DNA of 64,000 nt from positions 1 to 64,000 of the forward strand of contig CAMBZZ010000003.1 of NCBI GenBank assembly GCA_945872615.1, in the 5' to 3' direction. This DNA comes from an uncultured Clostridia bacterium (GTDB taxonomy: Bacteria; Bacillota; Clostridia; Christensenellales; UBA3700). Made by a program: the position numbers and the translations under genes. Of the stretch, positions 1,292 to 46,328 are shown piece by piece. A model generated the notes under the pieces. That model saw only the letters and a program-made list of their open reading frames with translations, did not search any database and was not told the DNA's origin. Each line of letters begins with the position of its first letter. The first letter of the stretch is position 1.

Positions 1292-1386
1292 CAACGCGTG
1301 TCAACTATAAAAATTTTTTCTAAAAAATTTGAGGCAAGTGCAACGTTGATTGAGGCTATTGAAATAGGATTGGCTACGTATTTGAG

Positions 1387-3039
1387 TTATTCGTTATCTT
1401 TTATCGTCACGTCGGAATCGATACGCTTGATTGTCTTGCCATACTTGAAAGTGTTGTCCTCAACGAGGCATTTGCCTGCCGATTTGAAATACAGTCCCTT
1501 GCTATGGCGTGATGCGAACAAGTTGGATTTGATCGTAATGCCGCTATGAACGAAACCGTCGTGCACTAGATTCTCGGGTTTGACGCAAACGTAGTATCCC
1601 TCGTTGCCAAAAAACCTATTGCCCTCGATGGTGACGTCCCTCACCATTCCGCTCTCGTACCAACTGTTGGCGTCGTCGGATATGAGAATGGCGTTCATCG
1701 AAGTATTGTAAAAATCGTTGTCTTCAACGACAATCTTGCCCGCGCTGGTCAAAAGCAGTCCGCGTGTAATTATACGCGTAAGAGAATTACCTTTGAAGAG
1801 TACGTCGGGGCATGCGGTGGCATTTTCGACTACCAATCCTTTGACCGCCGTATCTATAGGCGACGATAAAGTAATCTTGATTGTATAGTCGTCAACTAGG
1901 CGTGCATGCCCTACGCGGTTTTCGCCTACGACAAGTAGTGTGCGGGGACTGACGAAGCGCAATCTGTCACCCTCTTCGAAAGGACAATAGCCGAGCGTTT
2001 GGGGGTGCATAAATTTGACGAGTATATCTTGCCCGTCTATTTGAACAATCTTAAAGTGAACGCCGTGTACGTTGAGGCAATCGTCTCCCGCTCCGCAAAA
2101 CTCGTTGCCTACAATCTCGACCTTGCCTCTGCACGAGCATACTTGAATAAAATCCGCCACCGACGCCATCTTTTTACCACTCTCCTTGTCGGGAGCAAAG
2201 GTGCAGTTGACGATAGTCAAGTTTTCGCACCGTTGAAAAACCGTAGCCAAACCGTAATTAAAGCTTTGTCTCACGCCGTCCAAAACTATATCGTTGCACT
2301 TGTCGGCAAAAATTCCTTGATACTTTCTCCTTACGTCGTATAGATGAAACTCGTCGCCTACGCTGCAAAAAATCGGTACGAGATATTTTGCTCTGAACAG
2401 GTAAGGCGCGATTTCTCGGAAACTATAAGCTCCTCGCAACGGGTGAAAGGTCCTAAAAATAACGTCGGGTTGCCCCGTCGGGATTTTGCCTATCCACCAC
2501 GCCGTATTTCTATGGGCAAAAAACGGCGTGCAATATCCCTTGCCGACGAAGCGATAATCACCGTCCGAGCACTCGTATCGGCTGTCTTCGTCCAATGCAA
2601 AGTCAATGTATCCTATACCCTTTTTGACCACCGTAAGTCGATGCATATCGGGATTTTTTGCCTTAAAGGTCACGTTTTTGATTGTAATATTGCTACAGTT
2701 GCACATGGCAACGTTGGTCATCTGTCCCATTGCGATAAAGGTTGAGCCGTTGCCCTCCAGAGTGAGATTTTTGATACCGTCAAAGTATAGTCCCACGGCG
2801 TTGCGGTGTTTTTCTTCGTCCTCTTTCCACTCGTTATCTCCTATCGTGTTGGTAATATACAAGGTAGGTTTGGGCACGCCGTCAACGTCAAGATAATACT
2901 CCCCACGCTCTAAAACAAGAGTTTTGGGCTGCGAATCATCTGACAAACTCAACAATAAATCGTTGAGTCCCTTAGCAACCTCTTGCCCTGCAAGTATTCC
3001 GTAATCTTTGGCGTAAATAATCTTTGTTTCGTCCGACAT
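1387..3039 (-). CDS. right-handed beta-helix glycosidase, probably GH110 alpha-1,3-galactosidase-like
   Basis: 550 aa; repeated NxFxxN beta-helix turns; GAGDDCLNVHGVHFKI and MHPQTLGYCPFEEGDRLRFV resemble the GH110 core; no signal peptide. Confidence 0.7.
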   Translation of the reverse strand: MSDETKIIYAKDYGILAGQEVAKGLNDLLLSLSDDSQPKTLVLERGEYYLDVDGVPKPTLYITNTIGDNEWKEDEEKHRNAVGLYFDGIKNLTLEGNGSTFIAMGQMTNVAMCNCSNITIKNVTFKAKNPDMHRLTVVKKGIGYIDFALDEDSRYECSDGDYRFVGKGYCTPFFAHRNTAWWIGKIPTGQPDVIFRTFHPLRGAYSFREIAPYLFRAKYLVPIFCSVGDEFHLYDVRRKYQGIFADKCNDIVLDGVRQSFNYGLATVFQRCENLTIVNCTFAPDKESGKKMASVADFIQVCSCRGKVEIVGNEFCGAGDDCLNVHGVHFKIVQIDGQDILVKFMHPQTLGYCPFEEGDRLRFVSPRTLLVVGENRVGHARLVDDYTIKITLSSPIDTAVKGLVVENATACPDVLFKGNSLTRIITRGLLLTSAGKIVVEDNDFYNTSMNAILISDDANSWYESGMVRDVTIEGNRFFGNEGYYVCVKPENLVHDGFVHSGITIKSNLFASRHSKGLYFKSAGKCLVEDNTFKYGKTIKRIDSDVTIKDNE

Positions 3040-3164
3040 GCGTTACCTCTCAATCTATGGGCGACTGCCACTCCCGTTTTATTGTAACACATTGACGTAA
3101 GGCTGTCAAACCCGACTATTGACACCTCTAACCCGTTATGCTAAGATAGACCAAAGGAGAAAAT

Positions 3165-4100
3165 ATGAACAACAAATATCAAAAAACGGCAATAGATATA
3201 GTGAAGCAAGAGTGGAAGTGCAAGATAATATCATGCAAATATCTCGGCGGAGGGTCGTTTGGACGAGCCTTTAGAATAGAATTGGACAGAGAGCCGCGCG
3301 TAGTCGTGGTCAAGATTTATCTTGCCGACGGACTGTGCCAAAACGAAGCCGAAGACCTAAGACTTCTCGGCGAGGCGGGCGCAATCAAAGTGCCTAAAAT
3401 ATACTTAGTAAAATCAAAAAACGATGGCTGTGTCTGCGACTGCATTTGTATGGAATACATAGGCGGAAGAGACTGCTTGATGCTAACCCCGAAATATCTC
3501 TTTTGTCCAAGCAAAAGAAGACAATTCGTTGAGGACGCAACCGACGCCGTAATTGCTTTGCATAGTCATACGAGTGAAAAGTTCGGCTATGCTCGCAATC
3601 CTCAATTTGTCAGTTGGCAAGACTTCTATAGACAATACGTAGATGAGATTATGCTTAGTGCAAAGAAAGCTTACGCCGCGGGAAAAATCCAAGATAGAAT
3701 TTTGTCAATAGCAGAGGTAGCATATAGGAACTTTGACAAATTCTTTGACGAAAAGGTGGAAAGAGCTTGCCTATCGCACGGCGATACCAACGTGATGAAT
3801 ATGATGGCGGATAGTAAAACGCTGAGACTAAAAGCCTTTATCGACCCGCTCAACGCGCTCTATTGCGACCCCGACTACGACCTATACCAACTGGGAGCTT
3901 TGTCGGGCGAGTTGCTCGGTATGGTCAAGAGATATAAACAAAAATGCAAGGTGTCGGATAAGTGCGACCTTAAGGTTGCCACGTACGGAATATTTTGCGA
4001 GTTAAATTGCTACGTCAAGACGGGAAGATATACGGGCTTTATAATGAATAAGGCAATCAAAAATCTAAAGAAACAACTAAAAATGCACGACCTGTATTGA
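3165..4100 (+). CDS. aminoglycoside phosphotransferase / fructosamine-kinase family phosphotransferase
   Basis: 311 aa; LSHGDTNVMNMM and FIDPLNALYCDPDYDLYQLG kinase motifs; SD AAAGGAG. Confidence 0.75.
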   Translation: MNNKYQKTAIDIVKQEWKCKIISCKYLGGGSFGRAFRIELDREPRVVVVKIYLADGLCQNEAEDLRLLGEAGAIKVPKIYLVKSKNDGCVCDCICMEYIGGRDCLMLTPKYLFCPSKRRQFVEDATDAVIALHSHTSEKFGYARNPQFVSWQDFYRQYVDEIMLSAKKAYAAGKIQDRILSIAEVAYRNFDKFFDEKVERACLSHGDTNVMNMMADSKTLRLKAFIDPLNALYCDPDYDLYQLGALSGELLGMVKRYKQKCKVSDKCDLKVATYGIFCELNCYVKTGRYTGFIMNKAIKNLKKQLKMHDLY

Positions 4101-10480: not shown

Positions 10481-10651
10481 ATGGAAAATAAAGAAATATA
10501 TGTCGTAAAAGAAATTTGCGGCGACTACGCCGTGCTCCAAGCCGAAAACGGCGACCTACTGGATATAAGCGTTTTTTTGCTCCCATACGACCTGATGATA
10601 GGCGACAAGTTGGAGTGTGTAAATATGCTGGAATATCGCAAAATGAGTTAA
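10481..10651 (+). CDS. 56-aa DUF3006-like small protein
   Basis: MENKEIYVVKEICGDYAVLQAENGDLLDISVFLLPYDLMIGDKLECVNMLEYRKMS; below the ORF-track length limit; consensus promoter directly upstream. Confidence 0.65.
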   Translation: MENKEIYVVKEICGDYAVLQAENGDLLDISVFLLPYDLMIGDKLECVNMLEYRKMS

Positions 10652-10663
10652 AAAGTCGAGACT

Positions 10664-10855
10664 CTCATCAATTTGACGAGAGAATGAATTGCTCCTTGCG
10701 AAGCATTAATTGCAACAATTTGCATGAATTGCCTAACGGCATGAATTGCACCAACGGTGCATTATGGAGCAATTCAATTCATGGAGCGAAACGAGAAATC
10801 ATGGCGAAGCCAATTAATGACGGCAACGCTGTCAATTCATTTAATTAGGAGAAAA
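10664..10855. repeat. hairpin array A (ATGAATT / AATTCAT linkers)
   Basis: Mini-hairpins GCC-TAAC-GGC, GCACC-AAC-GGTGC, GGC-GAA-GCC, GACGGC-AAC-GCTGTC between ATGAATT (left half) and inverted AATTCAT/AATTAAT (right half) linkers. Confidence 0.7.
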
Positions 10856-10913
10856 TACAATCTTTCCCCGATGACGGGGCACGTATAAAAGTGTCGACAA
10901 TTAGGAAAAATTG

Positions 10914-21956: not shown

Positions 21957-21992
21957 TTAAAAAATCAATTTTCTTAATACGTATCGACTTTT

Positions 21993-24900
21993 TTAGTTTA
22001 TTTTGCGCAAAATCGCTAGATTTTTGGCAGGAATTTTGACGTCACCGCCGAGTTTGTCTATGCAATAGAGATTAGCCGTATCAATATCCGCCAACCTCTC
22101 TAATTGTCCAAACTGCGTCAAGTCTACGTAGGCGTCGCCGTCGGTAGGATTGGCAATATAGATATAGTCGCCTATGCGGTAGGCAAGCGCGCCCCAAGCA
22201 GAACGAACGGCAAGCCACTCGAATTGCTCTTTGGCAGTACCGAGGTCTCTAAACGCTCTATTGTGTCGTCTAATGCGGATAAGTCCTTGATAATAGTCGG
22301 ATATATCGCAATAAGCGTCCTTTCTATTCCAATCCAAAGCGTTGACGTCGTCGCCCGCATTGTAACTGTTGTCGTTCATTTGTTTGGTGCGACAAAATTC
22401 TTCACCTGCTTGCATAAAGGCAAGTCCCAAAGAACTCATCACAAAGAAGGCTCCGAATTTGGTAGCAATCTTGATTTCTCTCTCGCTTGGCATGGTCGCT
22501 TTGAGTTGGTCGTACAAGGTATAGTTGTCGTGCGCCGACATATAACAAACGTTTTGACTTGGGCTATTGAGTTTGAAAACCACACCGTCACGCTTATCGC
22601 TCGCCCCTTCTATTCCGCTCATAACGGCACTCAGAGAAACAGCCATTCCTTGCAAAAAGCCTCGCGATAGATGATTGTCACCTCTCAAGCCGTCTCTATA
22701 CGAGGAATTGAATACCCCCACTTTGCTCGGCAACAATGCAAGATTGGACGTGTCCGCGGGGACTATCCACGGAGCGGGAGGTAACGCCCACCAAGGCTCG
22801 CCGTACGACAAAATAGTTTTGCCGAGTTTGCTCTCCAACTCGTCAAGTCTATCTCGAATTGCAACCACGGTATCTATATCGTACAGTCCCATGAGGTCAA
22901 ACCTAAAGCCGTCGATATGATATTCTTCCACCCAATAGGTGAGAGAATCTATAATAAATTTGCGCACCATTGGCTTTTCGGTAGCAATTTCGTTGCCACA
23001 GCCCGAGCCGTTGAAAAATTTGCCGTCGGCAAACTTGCGATAATAGCAATCCCTTGCTACCTTTTCGAAGTTGGAGCTCTCGGTGCGATAGGTATGATTG
23101 TACACCACGTCGGCTATAACACCGATACCGTTGTCGTGCAAAGTTAGAATAAGTTGCTTGAGTTCTCTTATCCTTGCCTCAGGGTCGCAAGGATTGGTGC
23201 TATAAGAGCCTTCGGGCACGTTGTAATTGCATGGATCATAGCCCCAGTTGCGTTGCCAAAACTCTCTCTCGTCCACACTCTCGAAGTCGGCGATAGGCAA
23301 CAGTTGAACGTAGGTAACCCCCAACTGTCTCAGATAATCCACAAGGCACGCCTTGCCGCACACGGTCTTGTATCCTGTCGCAAACCCTCCGTATCTGCCT
23401 CTAACTTCAAAGCTATCCGGCATACCAACGCTAAAATCTCTTACGTGTACTTCCCATAATATCGGGGTTGCGTTGCCTCGATATTTGTCTTGTTCCCAAC
23501 CGTCGGGGTCTGTACCGGACAAGTCGACTATCATTGTGCGACAACCGTTTAGCCCCACAGCTCTGGCATAAGGGTCTATGCACTCTTTGCCGTCTATCTC
23601 GTATGCATAATACTTGCCCGTCATATCTTGCTCTACCGTGCACCTAAAGACGTCGCCTTCCTTAACCATCTCGTAGGTTGCGATAGGGCTTTGGGCAAAA
23701 GCCGTTTCAAAAATCTCCACCTTAGCAAAGTTGGTAGGAGGTGACCATACGGCGAAAGTCGTTGCCTTGCCGTTGACGTTGACGCCTAAATCGAAGCGCG
23801 TCTTTTTTACTTTGTCAACTTTGCCAAGTCTGTCGTATTGACGCGCAATCGCCTTTATCCTCTTGGCAAGTTTAGTCAATTCTTTATCGCTCGGAAAATC
23901 GATACGGCAACTCCAGTTGAGCTCGGACACGCTGCCCGGGGTATTGATTCTGCCCTCCTCACCGAGGTACAGCCAATCGGCAAAAGGTACGATAGCCACG
24001 TTGGACCTACTTGCAAAAACCAATCTTATGAGCGTGTCGGCAATGTCCTTGGCACTATCGCATTGGCACGTAACGTCCATCAACGAACACTCGTCATTGA
24101 TACTACGCTTGAGTTGCGACAACTTCGCCTCGTCGCTTAGACAAATAAACTGCATCAAAGTCGAGTTGTCGTGCGTGCCCGTGTATGCTATGCTCTTGCG
24201 AGGATAATTGCTCGGTCTGTTGTCACTGTCAACGTCGCCGTCCATGCCGAACTGAACCACTCGCATTCCGCAATAGCCCGTCTTGGACAAAAGCTGTCTT
24301 ACGCCGTCGTCTATAAGTCCCAAGTCTTCGGCAACTATATTAAGGTGAAGTTTGTCGGCGAACAATTCGAAGCCGACGCCTTGTTTCCATTCCCCGTCTA
24401 TAGCGTTCTTAGCTCCGTAAGGAACGCTATAATATCTATCCATTGCTCTAAAATGGTCTATGCGTACAACGTCGTATAATTCAAAGGCTTGGGCAATGCG
24501 CTCGTTCCACCAATCGTAGCCCTCCTCTTTCATCTTATCCCAATCGTACAAAGGGTTGCCCCACAACTGTCCTTCTTCGCAAAAATAATCGGGCGGAACG
24601 CCTGCCACCGCTTTGGGAACAAAATTGTCGTCAAGTTGGAAATTTTGCGGGCGGCTCCAAACTTCCACGCTGTCCAAAGCCACGTAAATAGGCATATCGC
24701 CCATAATCTTGACGCCTTTGGAATTGGCATATCCTTTCAACCCGAGCCATTGCGATTGTGCGACCCACTGCGTCCATAGATAGAAGCCCACTTCGTGCGA
24801 GTTTTGTTCGGCATACCGCTCGACTTGAGCACTGTCGAAAATGCGGTATCGCTGCCACTCATACCAAGGCGAATCGTCCTCGTCTTTGAGTGCCATAAAT

Positions 24901-34679: not shown

Positions 34680-34786
34680 AGATATATTATAATATAGAAA
34701 ATATATATTTTCAATACATATAAAAATTTTTTGGCAAAAAAAAGAACGGATTGGTGGCGTAGCAATATGACGTTTTCCACGTCGCT

Positions 34787-35174
34787 GTGATGTTGGTCTA
34801 TAGACAAATGACGTGCCTTCGGCGTGAAGTTTGCCTGACGGCAAGCATATGCTACGCAGTGATGTTTGTCTTACGACAAGTGATGTTTCTTCGCAGTGAT
34901 GTTTGTCTTACGACAAGTGATGTTTCTCCTTGCGGAGAAGTTATTGATAATATTACAATACTATTAGCGTTGTCAGTCCCACTTTGAACTTAGGTCTACG
35001 CAATAATTGCTATATTGTTACGCAGTGATGTTTGTCTGACGACAAGTGACGTGCCTTCGGCGTGATGTTTGCCTTACGGCAAGGGAGGTTTCTCCTAAAG
35101 GAAAGTTACGGATAAGAATTCAATTACTGTTGCAAAGCAACAATACCACTTTGACCATAGGTCAAAACATCACT
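34787..35174. repeat. hairpin array B (GTGATGTTT linkers), two tandem blocks with a conserved tail
   Basis: TTGTC-TTAC-GACAA, TTGCC-TGAC-GGCAA, GCC-TTC-GGC, CTCC-TTGC-GGAG units joined by GTGATGTTT; tail ...CACTTTGA(A/C)C(T/A)TAGGTC; ends with inverted linker AACATCACT. Confidence 0.8.
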
Positions 35175-37049: not shown

Positions 37050-38051
37050 TTATTGCAAAGCCAAGATAGCGTCAGGGATTGTGTAACCGATTTGTTCTGC
37101 AATAGTCTCGTTGATGGACAATGCGAAGCCTTCGGTCTGGTATCCGACTGGCATTTCGGCAGGATTTTTGCCGTTGACCAAAATATCAAACGCCATTTTT
37201 GCGGCAACTTTGCCGAGTTCGTAATAATCGATACTATAGGTAGCAACTCCGCAAGCGTCGTTCATACCGCCTTCACCGCATACGATAGGGATATTGTAGT
37301 TGCCCGCAGTATTGGCAGAATGTACGGATGCTGCGGCGGTAGCAAGAATGTTATCGGTAGGAATATAGAGACATTCTACTCCTGCAGCTGCCGCTCTTCC
37401 CATTGCGCTTTGGATTTCCGTTGCGTCGTTGATGGTAATACGAGTTACTCTATCCTCACCGAGATAATCGATAAGCATATCTGCTTGAATCTTGGAGTTG
37501 TTCTCTTTTGCAGAATACAACACGCCGTATTTAGCGGTAGCCGAATCTTTTACTACGAGTTTCATCAACTCGGCTTGTTGTTCGATTGGGTTCATATCGC
37601 TACATCCGGTAACGTTAGCGCCCGGTCTGTCTTTGGTAGCAACTAATTTTTCCGCTACAGGGTCGGTCACCGCGCTAAATACTATAGGAATAGTCTTGGT
37701 AGCGTTGGCAGCAGCCACGGACGGAGACGTAGCGATTGTATAAATGAGGTCCACGTTTTTGTTGACCAACGTACTTGCGTTGGTAGAGTTGTTGTTTGCT
37801 TCACCGTTGGAGTTGGTATACTCGAAATTTACCGTTTTGCCTGCTTCTTCCATAAGAGAGGTAAGTTCGGTCTTAAAACCTTCGTAGGCTTTGTCGAGTG
37901 CAACGTGAGGCAATAATTGAATTACGCCTATCGTGTAGTCGGCTTTGGTACAGCCTGCGAAAGAGAATGCCGAAAATGCAACGAGCATTATTACGAGCAT
38001 TGATACGATGTAAATTTTCTTCATCTTCATAGTCTTTTTTTGTTTTGCCAT
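37050..38051 (-). CDS. ABC transporter substrate-binding lipoprotein (PF04392 / TrpX-like)
   Basis: 333 aa; lipobox FSFAGC; YTIGVIQLLPHVALDKAYEGFK, IPIVFSAVTDPVAEKLV. Confidence 0.92.
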   Translation of the reverse strand: MAKQKKTMKMKKIYIVSMLVIMLVAFSAFSFAGCTKADYTIGVIQLLPHVALDKAYEGFKTELTSLMEEAGKTVNFEYTNSNGEANNNSTNASTLVNKNVDLIYTIATSPSVAAANATKTIPIVFSAVTDPVAEKLVATKDRPGANVTGCSDMNPIEQQAELMKLVVKDSATAKYGVLYSAKENNSKIQADMLIDYLGEDRVTRITINDATEIQSAMGRAAAAGVECLYIPTDNILATAAASVHSANTAGNYNIPIVCGEGGMNDACGVATYSIDYYELGKVAAKMAFDILVNGKNPAEMPVGYQTEGFALSINETIAEQIGYTIPDAILALQ

Positions 38052-45344: not shown

Positions 45345-46328
45345 TCAACTTTCCTCTACGAATTCTCCGTCGATAGCCGACTGATACATCATCCAATATC
45401 CTCTGCCGTCATCGGCAACGGGCAACCATTGTCTGCACGTTGCGTTGCAAGGCGGCGGATTGGAGTTGTCCTTGTCTGGCACGCCGTAACAAATAATTTG
45501 CGGCGTATCGTCGTAATATATTATTCCCGTCACGTAATAGCCTTCCTCACCCGTCGGCACTCTCACCCACTTACTGTTCTCAATAAGTCTTTCAAGTTCT
45601 TCGTCGGCTTGATAGGTTGCAAAGAGTTTGTCTAATTCTTCTTTGATAGACTCGTAGAAATCGGCAGACTTCTTTTGCGGTTCATCGGTTATTTCTTCAT
45701 CAGAGTTAGGCGTAGGCTCTTCATCCGCTTCCCTTTGCATTGCGGATTGCATTGATTCCTCGGCATGATCTCTTTCGATAATACCGTCGGCACTTTCTTC
45801 ATCGTTTTGCCAATGATCTTCTTCTAATCTCTCATTCGATTGATGCGAATCGTCTTGATTTTGTCGCATATCGTTTTTTTCTATCGTACGGCTTTCTGCA
45901 CGGTCGTCTAGTTGTTCGCGATAACGTTGCTCGACCGTCTCTTGTCTATCGTTAGATTGCTTCGATTGTGAATTTTGGGGATATGTATCGACTTTTTGGT
46001 CTCTATGGTATGCCTCTAGCCTTTTGTTTATCTCATTAAAAATATGCGACTGACCGAGAGGATTGCCATTGACGCTGCCTTTGGCAACTATTCTTCCGTC
46101 AGACATTGCAACGACGGTTATAGTAGCGTCCACGTCGACGTTGTCTAAGCTAGCGATACTGTCGCAATCGCCGAGATAAACCAATTTGTTTTTTTCAAAA
46201 ATGCCAAGCATAGCGTCTTTTACGCCGAAAATTTTGGCTTTGGCTATACACTTGTCACTCAACTTCTCTATTTTGACGTATCCCGATACGTCACCGCTCA
46301 ACACGATAAGTTTTTTATTGATAAACAT
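45345..46328 (-). CDS. hypothetical protein with charged low-complexity linker and compact C-terminal domain
   Basis: Start MFINKKL after SD AGGAGGGG; disordered Q/D/E/R-rich centre; C-terminal WVRVPTGEEGYYVTGIIYYDDTPQIICYGVPDKDNSNPPPCNATCRQWLPV. Confidence 0.65.
   Translation of the reverse strand: MFINKKLIVLSGDVSGYVKIEKLSDKCIAKAKIFGVKDAMLGIFEKNKLVYLGDCDSIASLDNVDVDATITVVAMSDGRIVAKGSVNGNPLGQSHIFNEINKRLEAYHRDQKVDTYPQNSQSKQSNDRQETVEQRYREQLDDRAESRTIEKNDMRQNQDDSHQSNERLEEDHWQNDEESADGIIERDHAEESMQSAMQREADEEPTPNSDEEITDEPQKKSADFYESIKEELDKLFATYQADEELERLIENSKWVRVPTGEEGYYVTGIIYYDDTPQIICYGVPDKDNSNPPPCNATCRQWLPVADDGRGYWMMYQSAIDGEFVEES

Follow-up and report, generated by a model that had tools for sequence, protein, structure and literature searches.

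What are the hairpin arrays that lie behind a weakly DUF3006-like gene, and once more some 24 kb farther on, in this 64 kb window (the whole stretch of 64,000 nucleotides that was analysed), and how did they come to be there? Reading the letters directly, we found that the pieces of the first block, array A, lie where the original prediction had placed them: linkers of one family separate small hairpins on the left, and inverted linkers separate hairpins on the right (Table 1). The array is slightly longer than the earlier limits, at about 230 bases, and both of its ends carry a terminal hairpin. A word count across the window flagged arrays A and B and no other region; the window contains 7 occurrences of ATGAATTG as compared to 2.6 expected, and 5 of the 7 are inside array A.

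Table 1. Positions of array A, its parts, its copies and array B (window numbering unless a contig of the source genome is named).
Feature	Position	Strand	Basis or remark
Upstream gene, weak DUF3006 match	10481-10651	+	Stop codon 4 nt before array start
Whole array A element (copy without IVP gene)	10655-10884 (approximate)	+	Homology to C1:146101-146301 (92%); C1 copy flanked by rlmD and IVP gene
Left end: GTCGAGAC and terminal hairpin CTCTCATCAATTTGACGAGAG (10662-10682)	10655-10686	+	From last codons and stop of rlmD
Left half: linkers ATGAATT(G)/ATGAATTG at 10684, 10724, 10741, variant ATTAATTG at 10706; hairpins GCAACAATTTGC (10712-10723), GCCTAACGGC (10731-10740), GCACCAACGGTGC (10748-10760)	10684-10765	+	Direct reading
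Outer stem, encloses left half: GAATTGCTCC (10686-10695) / GGAGCAATTC (10766-10775)	10686-10775	+	Minimum-energy RNA structure; covariation
Right half: inverted linkers AATTCAT, AATTAAT, CAATTCAT; hairpins GGCGAAGCC (10803-10811), GACGGCAACGCTGTC (10819-10833)	10776-10841	+	Direct reading; consensus fold
AATTAGGAGAAA, ribosome-binding site of missing IVP gene	10843-10854	+	C1 copy: AATTAGGAGAAAAA-ATG, IVP start
Right end TTTCCCCGATGACGGGGCACGT, resembles rlmD stretch for FPMTGHV	10863-10884	+	19/22 nt equal to C1 rlmD
Array A copy	C1:146101-146301		92% over 201 nt
Array A copy	C11:77-233		80%
Array A copy	C4:27908-27985		87%
Array B, same design, linker GTGATGTT, without IVP gene	34755-35170	+	Word count; G122 relative

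The RNA fold of positions 10640-10880 reaches –69.5 kcal/mol as compared to –51.6 kcal/mol (sd 4.3) in dinucleotide shuffles (z –4.2), and the DNA fold gives z –3.7. For the trimmed array, folded as RNA, z is –3.2 on the plus strand and –4.3 on the minus strand. In every comparison, on both strands, 0 of 200 shuffles matched the fold energy of array A. These shuffle controls, together with the homologues described below, refute the idea that the array arose by chance or from the base composition of AT-rich intergenic DNA (its linkers are AT-rich), to which we give next to no credence. The original prediction also proposed that the two halves could pair through their linkers into a single long stem with side hairpins. 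Pairing between the halves is present; however, the best-supported long pairing of the array A RNA is an outer stem that encloses the left half only, and the right half makes its own hairpins. Within this outer stem, GGAGC (10766-10770) is a better partner for GCTCC (10691-10695) than the local hairpin GCTCCTTGCGAAGC that had been proposed for it. In an alignment of 12 homologous arrays of the ATGAATTG family, the linker columns are invariant while the stems vary, 7 of the 32 predicted pairs have changes on both sides, and the outer-stem pair at alignment columns 11/101 is retained through four pair types.

The 1.68 Mb source genome (G000) holds three further copies of array A, and relatives of it are present in six genomes that belong to different families within the order (best match 85% over ~118 nt, in G108), so that the homologues anticipated for ATGAATT arrays do exist. 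The copy on contig C1 starts at the stop codon of a gene, behind GHVETLVKLTRV, that from its conserved C-terminus we take to be rlmD (23S rRNA m5U methyltransferase), and it ends in the Shine-Dalgarno sequence of a gene that encodes a 117-aa PF05635 protein (23S rRNA IVP/four-helix bundle, E 6.5e-25; hereafter IVP). This IVP gene covers C1:145779-146093 plus an extension to its start. Array A is homologous to this copy from GTCGAGAC, which consists of rlmD codons, through AATTAGGAGAAAA, just ahead of the IVP start codon, and the letters of its left end equal the rlmD codons VETLVKLTRV plus stop in the C1 copy. No IVP gene is found directly downstream of array A, which ends at the ribosome-binding site; we therefore call it a gene-less copy.

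Behind array A, TTTCCCCGATGACGGGGCACGT is close to the rlmD stretch that in the intact gene directly precedes GTCGAGAC. Because this rlmD-like stretch sits behind GTCGAGAC and not before it, the arrangement suggests, on a short 22-nt match, that array A is a circular permutation around the rlmD His-Val codons. Searching the rest of the genome for the rlmD-like att motif gave two further matches, both looking like ordinary sequence. In the sister genome G001, the locus orthologous to that of array A lacks the array. There, ATATGTATCGACTTTTT stands behind the DUF3006-like gene and resembles a short repeat of the window that ends in TATCGACTTTTT or similar (21967-21993, 45971-45997 and 38013-38039). 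A search of phage DNA with array A gave no match, and the IVP protein is present in 2 unannotated fecal phage records. A phage-type tyrosine recombinase gene lies at the start of the contig (window 44-970).

PF05635 genes are found in 39 of the 149 relatives. To quantify the repeats upstream of IVP genes, we oriented 60 IVP loci by the gene (first set, 58 of them scored) and took the best 7-mer, on both strands, in the 300 nt upstream. A 7-mer present at least four times was found at 38/58 IVP loci as compared to 5/272 controls; at least five occurrences were found at 22/58 loci, in 1/272 tiles from the same loci and in 0/65 upstream regions of other ORFs. In a second set of 80 loci, retrieved by IVP protein from GTDB genomes, the corresponding values were 70/80 against 5/189 controls (at least four) and 57/80 against 1/189 (at least five). 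The two sets have a few loci in common (e.g. L150 and L111) and are therefore nearly, not fully, independent. When we folded 40 arrays of the second set, the mean z was –4.7 as compared to –1.1 in controls.

The linkers seen at IVP genes include ATGAATTG, AGTTATAT, CGATATA, (R)TGAAAT, ACATCACT, GTGAAAT, ACATCAC, AACATCG, ATGAAGC and more, and array A fits the design of these IVP-linked arrays, with a linker-hairpin left half, an outer stem and an inverted-linker right half. Array B belongs to a linker family of its own (GTGATGTT/ACATCACT), of which an IVP-linked array with ACATCACT is present in G122 (L075) and fragments are present in the source genome (C1:141889 and C8:32047). The view that two unrelated linkers of one design point to a broad family class is thus upheld by IVP-linked arrays with many linkers and by the homologues in relatives; what the original prediction missed is the tie of the class to IVP genes and its insertion behind tRNA genes and rlmD. 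IVP genes with little or no array also exist (e.g. L058, L064 and L098). At L057, L065, L066, L068, L082, L084 and L088, plain tandem short repeats (e.g. GGTCAGT, AGAATGC or GGTAATA) replace the hairpin array. IVP genes are also found on Nostoc plasmids.

To compare linker and protein, we scored for 135 elements whether each pair shared a repeated 6-mer and how similar their IVP proteins were. A shared 6-mer was found in 3% of pairs below 40% IVP identity, 11% at 40-50%, 21% at 50-60%, 82% at 60-70% and 98-100% at 70% identity or higher (Mantel r 0.53, a value reached in 0 of 1000 permutations). By this measure the linker is specific to the IVP lineage. Common descent can account for part of the coupling; in the ATGAATTG family, however, it is the linkers that stay constant and the stems that vary. 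The IVP gene itself is under purifying selection (dN/dS 0.04-0.13 in six comparisons). The solved structure closest by sequence is 2RLD, whose entry holds five chains; we take the family to form pentamers.

The arrays and their IVP genes occupy a narrow range of sites. In the second set, 33/80 loci have a tRNA gene that ends within ~120-285 nt ahead of the IVP start codon, on the same strand in all of them, and none lies downstream. In the first set, a same-strand tRNA gene is directly upstream at 13/60 loci, with one more farther off and one on the opposite strand; among control ORFs, 0/134 have a same-strand tRNA gene directly upstream. At the tRNA sites, the end of the tRNA gene does not recur downstream as a direct repeat of 12 nt. 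In G030, the element lies between tRNA-Met and a terminator-like hairpin, and in seven congeners the terminator directly follows tRNA-Met; we read the tRNA-Met loci of these congeners as empty sites. An empty-site search at L097 was uninformative because the flank is itself a high-copy repeat. This flank (L097:500-1380, in G036:C8) is dispersed: G036 has 26 matches to it and G042 has 34.

Elements at rlmD are found in G000, G108, G126, G053 and G119 and at L144, L145, L146, L147 and L157. Beyond the IVP gene, or beyond the cargo where there is any, a displaced rlmD end is readable in G108 (HVETLVLLDRR and stop), L144, L145, L146 and L208. Cargo between the IVP gene and the displaced end is of the DUF2716 and DUF5071 types (L144 ~1911-2390, L145 ~1934-2356), and between rlmD and its displaced end in G108, L144 and L145 integrase and mobilisation genes are absent: the interval holds the IVP ORF with or without such cargo. 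Contig G126:C128 carries two tandem elements, one with a deleted IVP gene, and a GGCATGTCGAATCAGT repeat is present on both flanks of the L144 rlmD element. The left-end hairpin is present in all rlmD and tRNA cases that we read; at rlmD one of its arms consists of host codons, and at tRNA genes it is terminator-like. Three tandem arrays in G104:C91 (L110) each have their own copy of the hairpin, which is therefore part of the element there. At the rlmD 3' end of G001 (L226, G001:C55, ~1340-3380 in rlmD orientation), a cassette with a 571-aa ORF resembling DUF262 proteins occupies the same codons, with a displaced rlmD end (HVETLVQLTRK and stop) behind it. Because G001 carries a different cassette at the same codons, the rlmD 3' end is a wider integration hotspot in this group.

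We compared these units with known systems. Rfam gave no match at cut-off in the window and, when E was relaxed to 10, nothing but eukaryotic or streptococcal matches below threshold; array A, with linker ATGAATTG, does not reach the cut-off of RF01706 (Gut-1). The Gut-1 model describes hairpins joined by (R)TGAAAU linkers over only ~77 nt of one half, and it scores above cut-off on (R)TGAAAT arrays upstream of IVP genes (e.g. L158, L160, L161, L162, L163, L164, L171 and L173). Judged by these model matches, the (R)TGAAAT-linker subfamily of IVP-linked arrays is the Gut-1 RNA of Rfam. Gut-1 is present in 36/149 relatives, often in many copies each, and it occurs together with IVP in 27 genomes as compared to 9.4 expected (p 4e-13, a guide only because the genomes are related). 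In the paper that described it, Gut-1 is listed as a likely noncoding RNA from human gut samples that was found in environmental sequence only, and the main text of their paper mentions neither IVP nor insertion (PMC2864571). Our literature searches, with most subscription papers outside their scope, found no paper tying IVP to hairpin arrays. The class had been predicted to be broader and possibly undescribed; it is broader, its members being readable as IVP-linked small mobile elements, and it is not wholly undescribed, since the Gut-1 branch is already in Rfam.

The 23S rRNA IVSs with an IVP/S23 ORF have been described as small selfish elements with borders of complementary sequence and unexplained mobility (PMC4990558). 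They have the PF05635 protein in common with the array elements, which in contrast lie behind tRNA genes or in rlmD rather than in rRNA and carry a linker-hairpin array. IVSs are cut out of RNA by RNase III. Array A is likewise not inside a 23S rRNA gene: it lies behind the DUF3006-like ORF, its C1 copy lies behind rlmD, and the window is without an rRNA match. In REP/RAYT systems, short palindromic repeats track a cognate encoded protein, gene-less copies included. The array elements resemble REP/BIME-RAYT systems in having palindromic repeats matched to a cognate protein and gene-less copies; however, that protein is a four-helix bundle and not a Y1 transposase. PF05635 was the only family found in the units read for this comparison, with DUF2716/DUF5071-type cargo in some rlmD elements. 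With integrative elements at the rumA/rlmD 3' end, the array elements share the target site, the restored gene end, the displaced old end and the tandem units, but the units read (~0.5-1.2 kb) contain no integrase or mobilisation gene.

We read array A as a MITE-like copy, lacking IVP, of a small mobile 'IVP element' of ~0.45-1.2 kb, with a probability of roughly 0.7; we deduce insertion by comparing metagenome-assembled genomes, and mobility and IVP binding are inferred. As far as aligned units reveal, the full element comprises a left-end hairpin, a left half with linkers of 7-8 nt, an outer stem, an inverted-linker right half, a ribosome-binding site, a PF05635 gene and sometimes cargo. It sits directly behind a same-strand tRNA gene or within the last rlmD codons, with the old end or terminator of the host gene displaced behind it. 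Array A retains all parts as far as the ribosome-binding site and has lost the gene. The IVP protein would bind the array of its own element, as an RNA leader or single-stranded DNA, via the repeated linkers; the resulting complex would protect or move the element, and gene-less copies would be moved in trans. Insertion may proceed via a circle whose junction lies at the rlmD His-Val codons (CAY-GT-SGARAC), with a recombinase that probably comes from the host or another element. The end hairpin would restore the terminator at tRNA genes and the reading frame at rlmD, and insertion would therefore be cheap for the host. Points against this reading are that the element itself encodes no known mobility enzyme, that the rlmD-like right end of array A is a match of 22 nt, that common descent contributes to the linker-protein coupling and that some IVP genes have little or no array.

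An integrase acting in trans is a strong rival. The array-IVP unit would then be ordinary cargo, moved by an integrative element whose site-specific recombinase acts at rlmD and tRNA 3' ends, its hairpins would be recombination sites or terminators and IVP would have no role in movement, an account that we consider serious and somewhat more doubtful than probable. Such 3' ends are classical integrase targets, and rumA is a known ICE target; the GGCATGTCGAATCAGT-type repeats on the flanks of the rlmD element, the tandem units, the different cassette at the same site in G001 and six large serine recombinases in the source genome all fit. The linker-IVP coupling and the purifying selection on IVP are left without account, however, the tRNA end is not repeated downstream as a 12-nt direct repeat, and G053, with six IVP matches, shows no recombinase in a survey that covered the large serine type. 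As a discriminator, large serine recombinases were discarded, being too common to tell cases apart. Because a trans-acting integrase is compatible with a helper role of IVP, our confidences in the two explanations sum to more than one.

If the arrays are instead regulatory leaders or noncoding RNAs, as Gut-1 has been viewed, they would control the IVP gene or act alone, and their scatter would be ordinary duplication. That Gut-1 is one subfamily, that the stems covary and that the IVP ribosome-binding site follows directly on the arrays, which share the strand of the upstream gene, speak for this; the insertion indicated by many gene-less copies, empty sites and displaced host ends makes it unlikely as a full account. 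If the arrays were REP/BIME- or MITE-type repeats that depend on a DNA transposase from another locus, and IVP were a chance neighbour, this would explain short palindromic repeats at gene ends, gene-less copies and high copy number in some genomes, but both sets show IVP and arrays together far more often than controls do, and homologous units terminate at the IVP gene or just behind it, and we regard this view as rather improbable. Retro-mobility, in which an Avd-like IVP aids a reverse transcriptase in copying the array-IVP RNA, starts from the finding that Avd of diversity-generating retroelements is a structural relative of PF05635 (PMC10053308). A weak co-occurrence of reverse transcriptase with IVP genomes (p 0.005; 0.07 with only IVP matches over cut-off) is in keeping with it. 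Diversity-generating retroelements have a reverse transcriptase, whereas PF00078 had no match in the source genome and no reverse transcriptase was seen in the array elements read. None was detected in G108, G053, G143, G104 or G138 either, all of which, like the source genome, carry IVP elements; a reverse transcriptase is thus not required in the same genome. One acting in trans is disfavoured because none was detected in the source genome, which leaves retro-mobility very improbable.

The PF05635 protein and its cognate array may be a mobility or maintenance unit and the elements a new kind of minimal mobile element, of which Gut-1 and perhaps the 23S rRNA IVSs would be branches and array A a gene-less satellite mobilised in trans; we put this forward tentatively, with the odds against it. 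The shared architecture connects the Gut-1 RNA with the IVP/four-helix-bundle family, both of them orphans. For the unexplained mobility of 23S rRNA IVSs there is now a tractable relative, whose ends can be read, whose linkers match the protein and for which empty sites and gene-less copies exist, and a frequent intergenic hairpin repeat of gut Clostridia, blank in annotation, would be accounted for.
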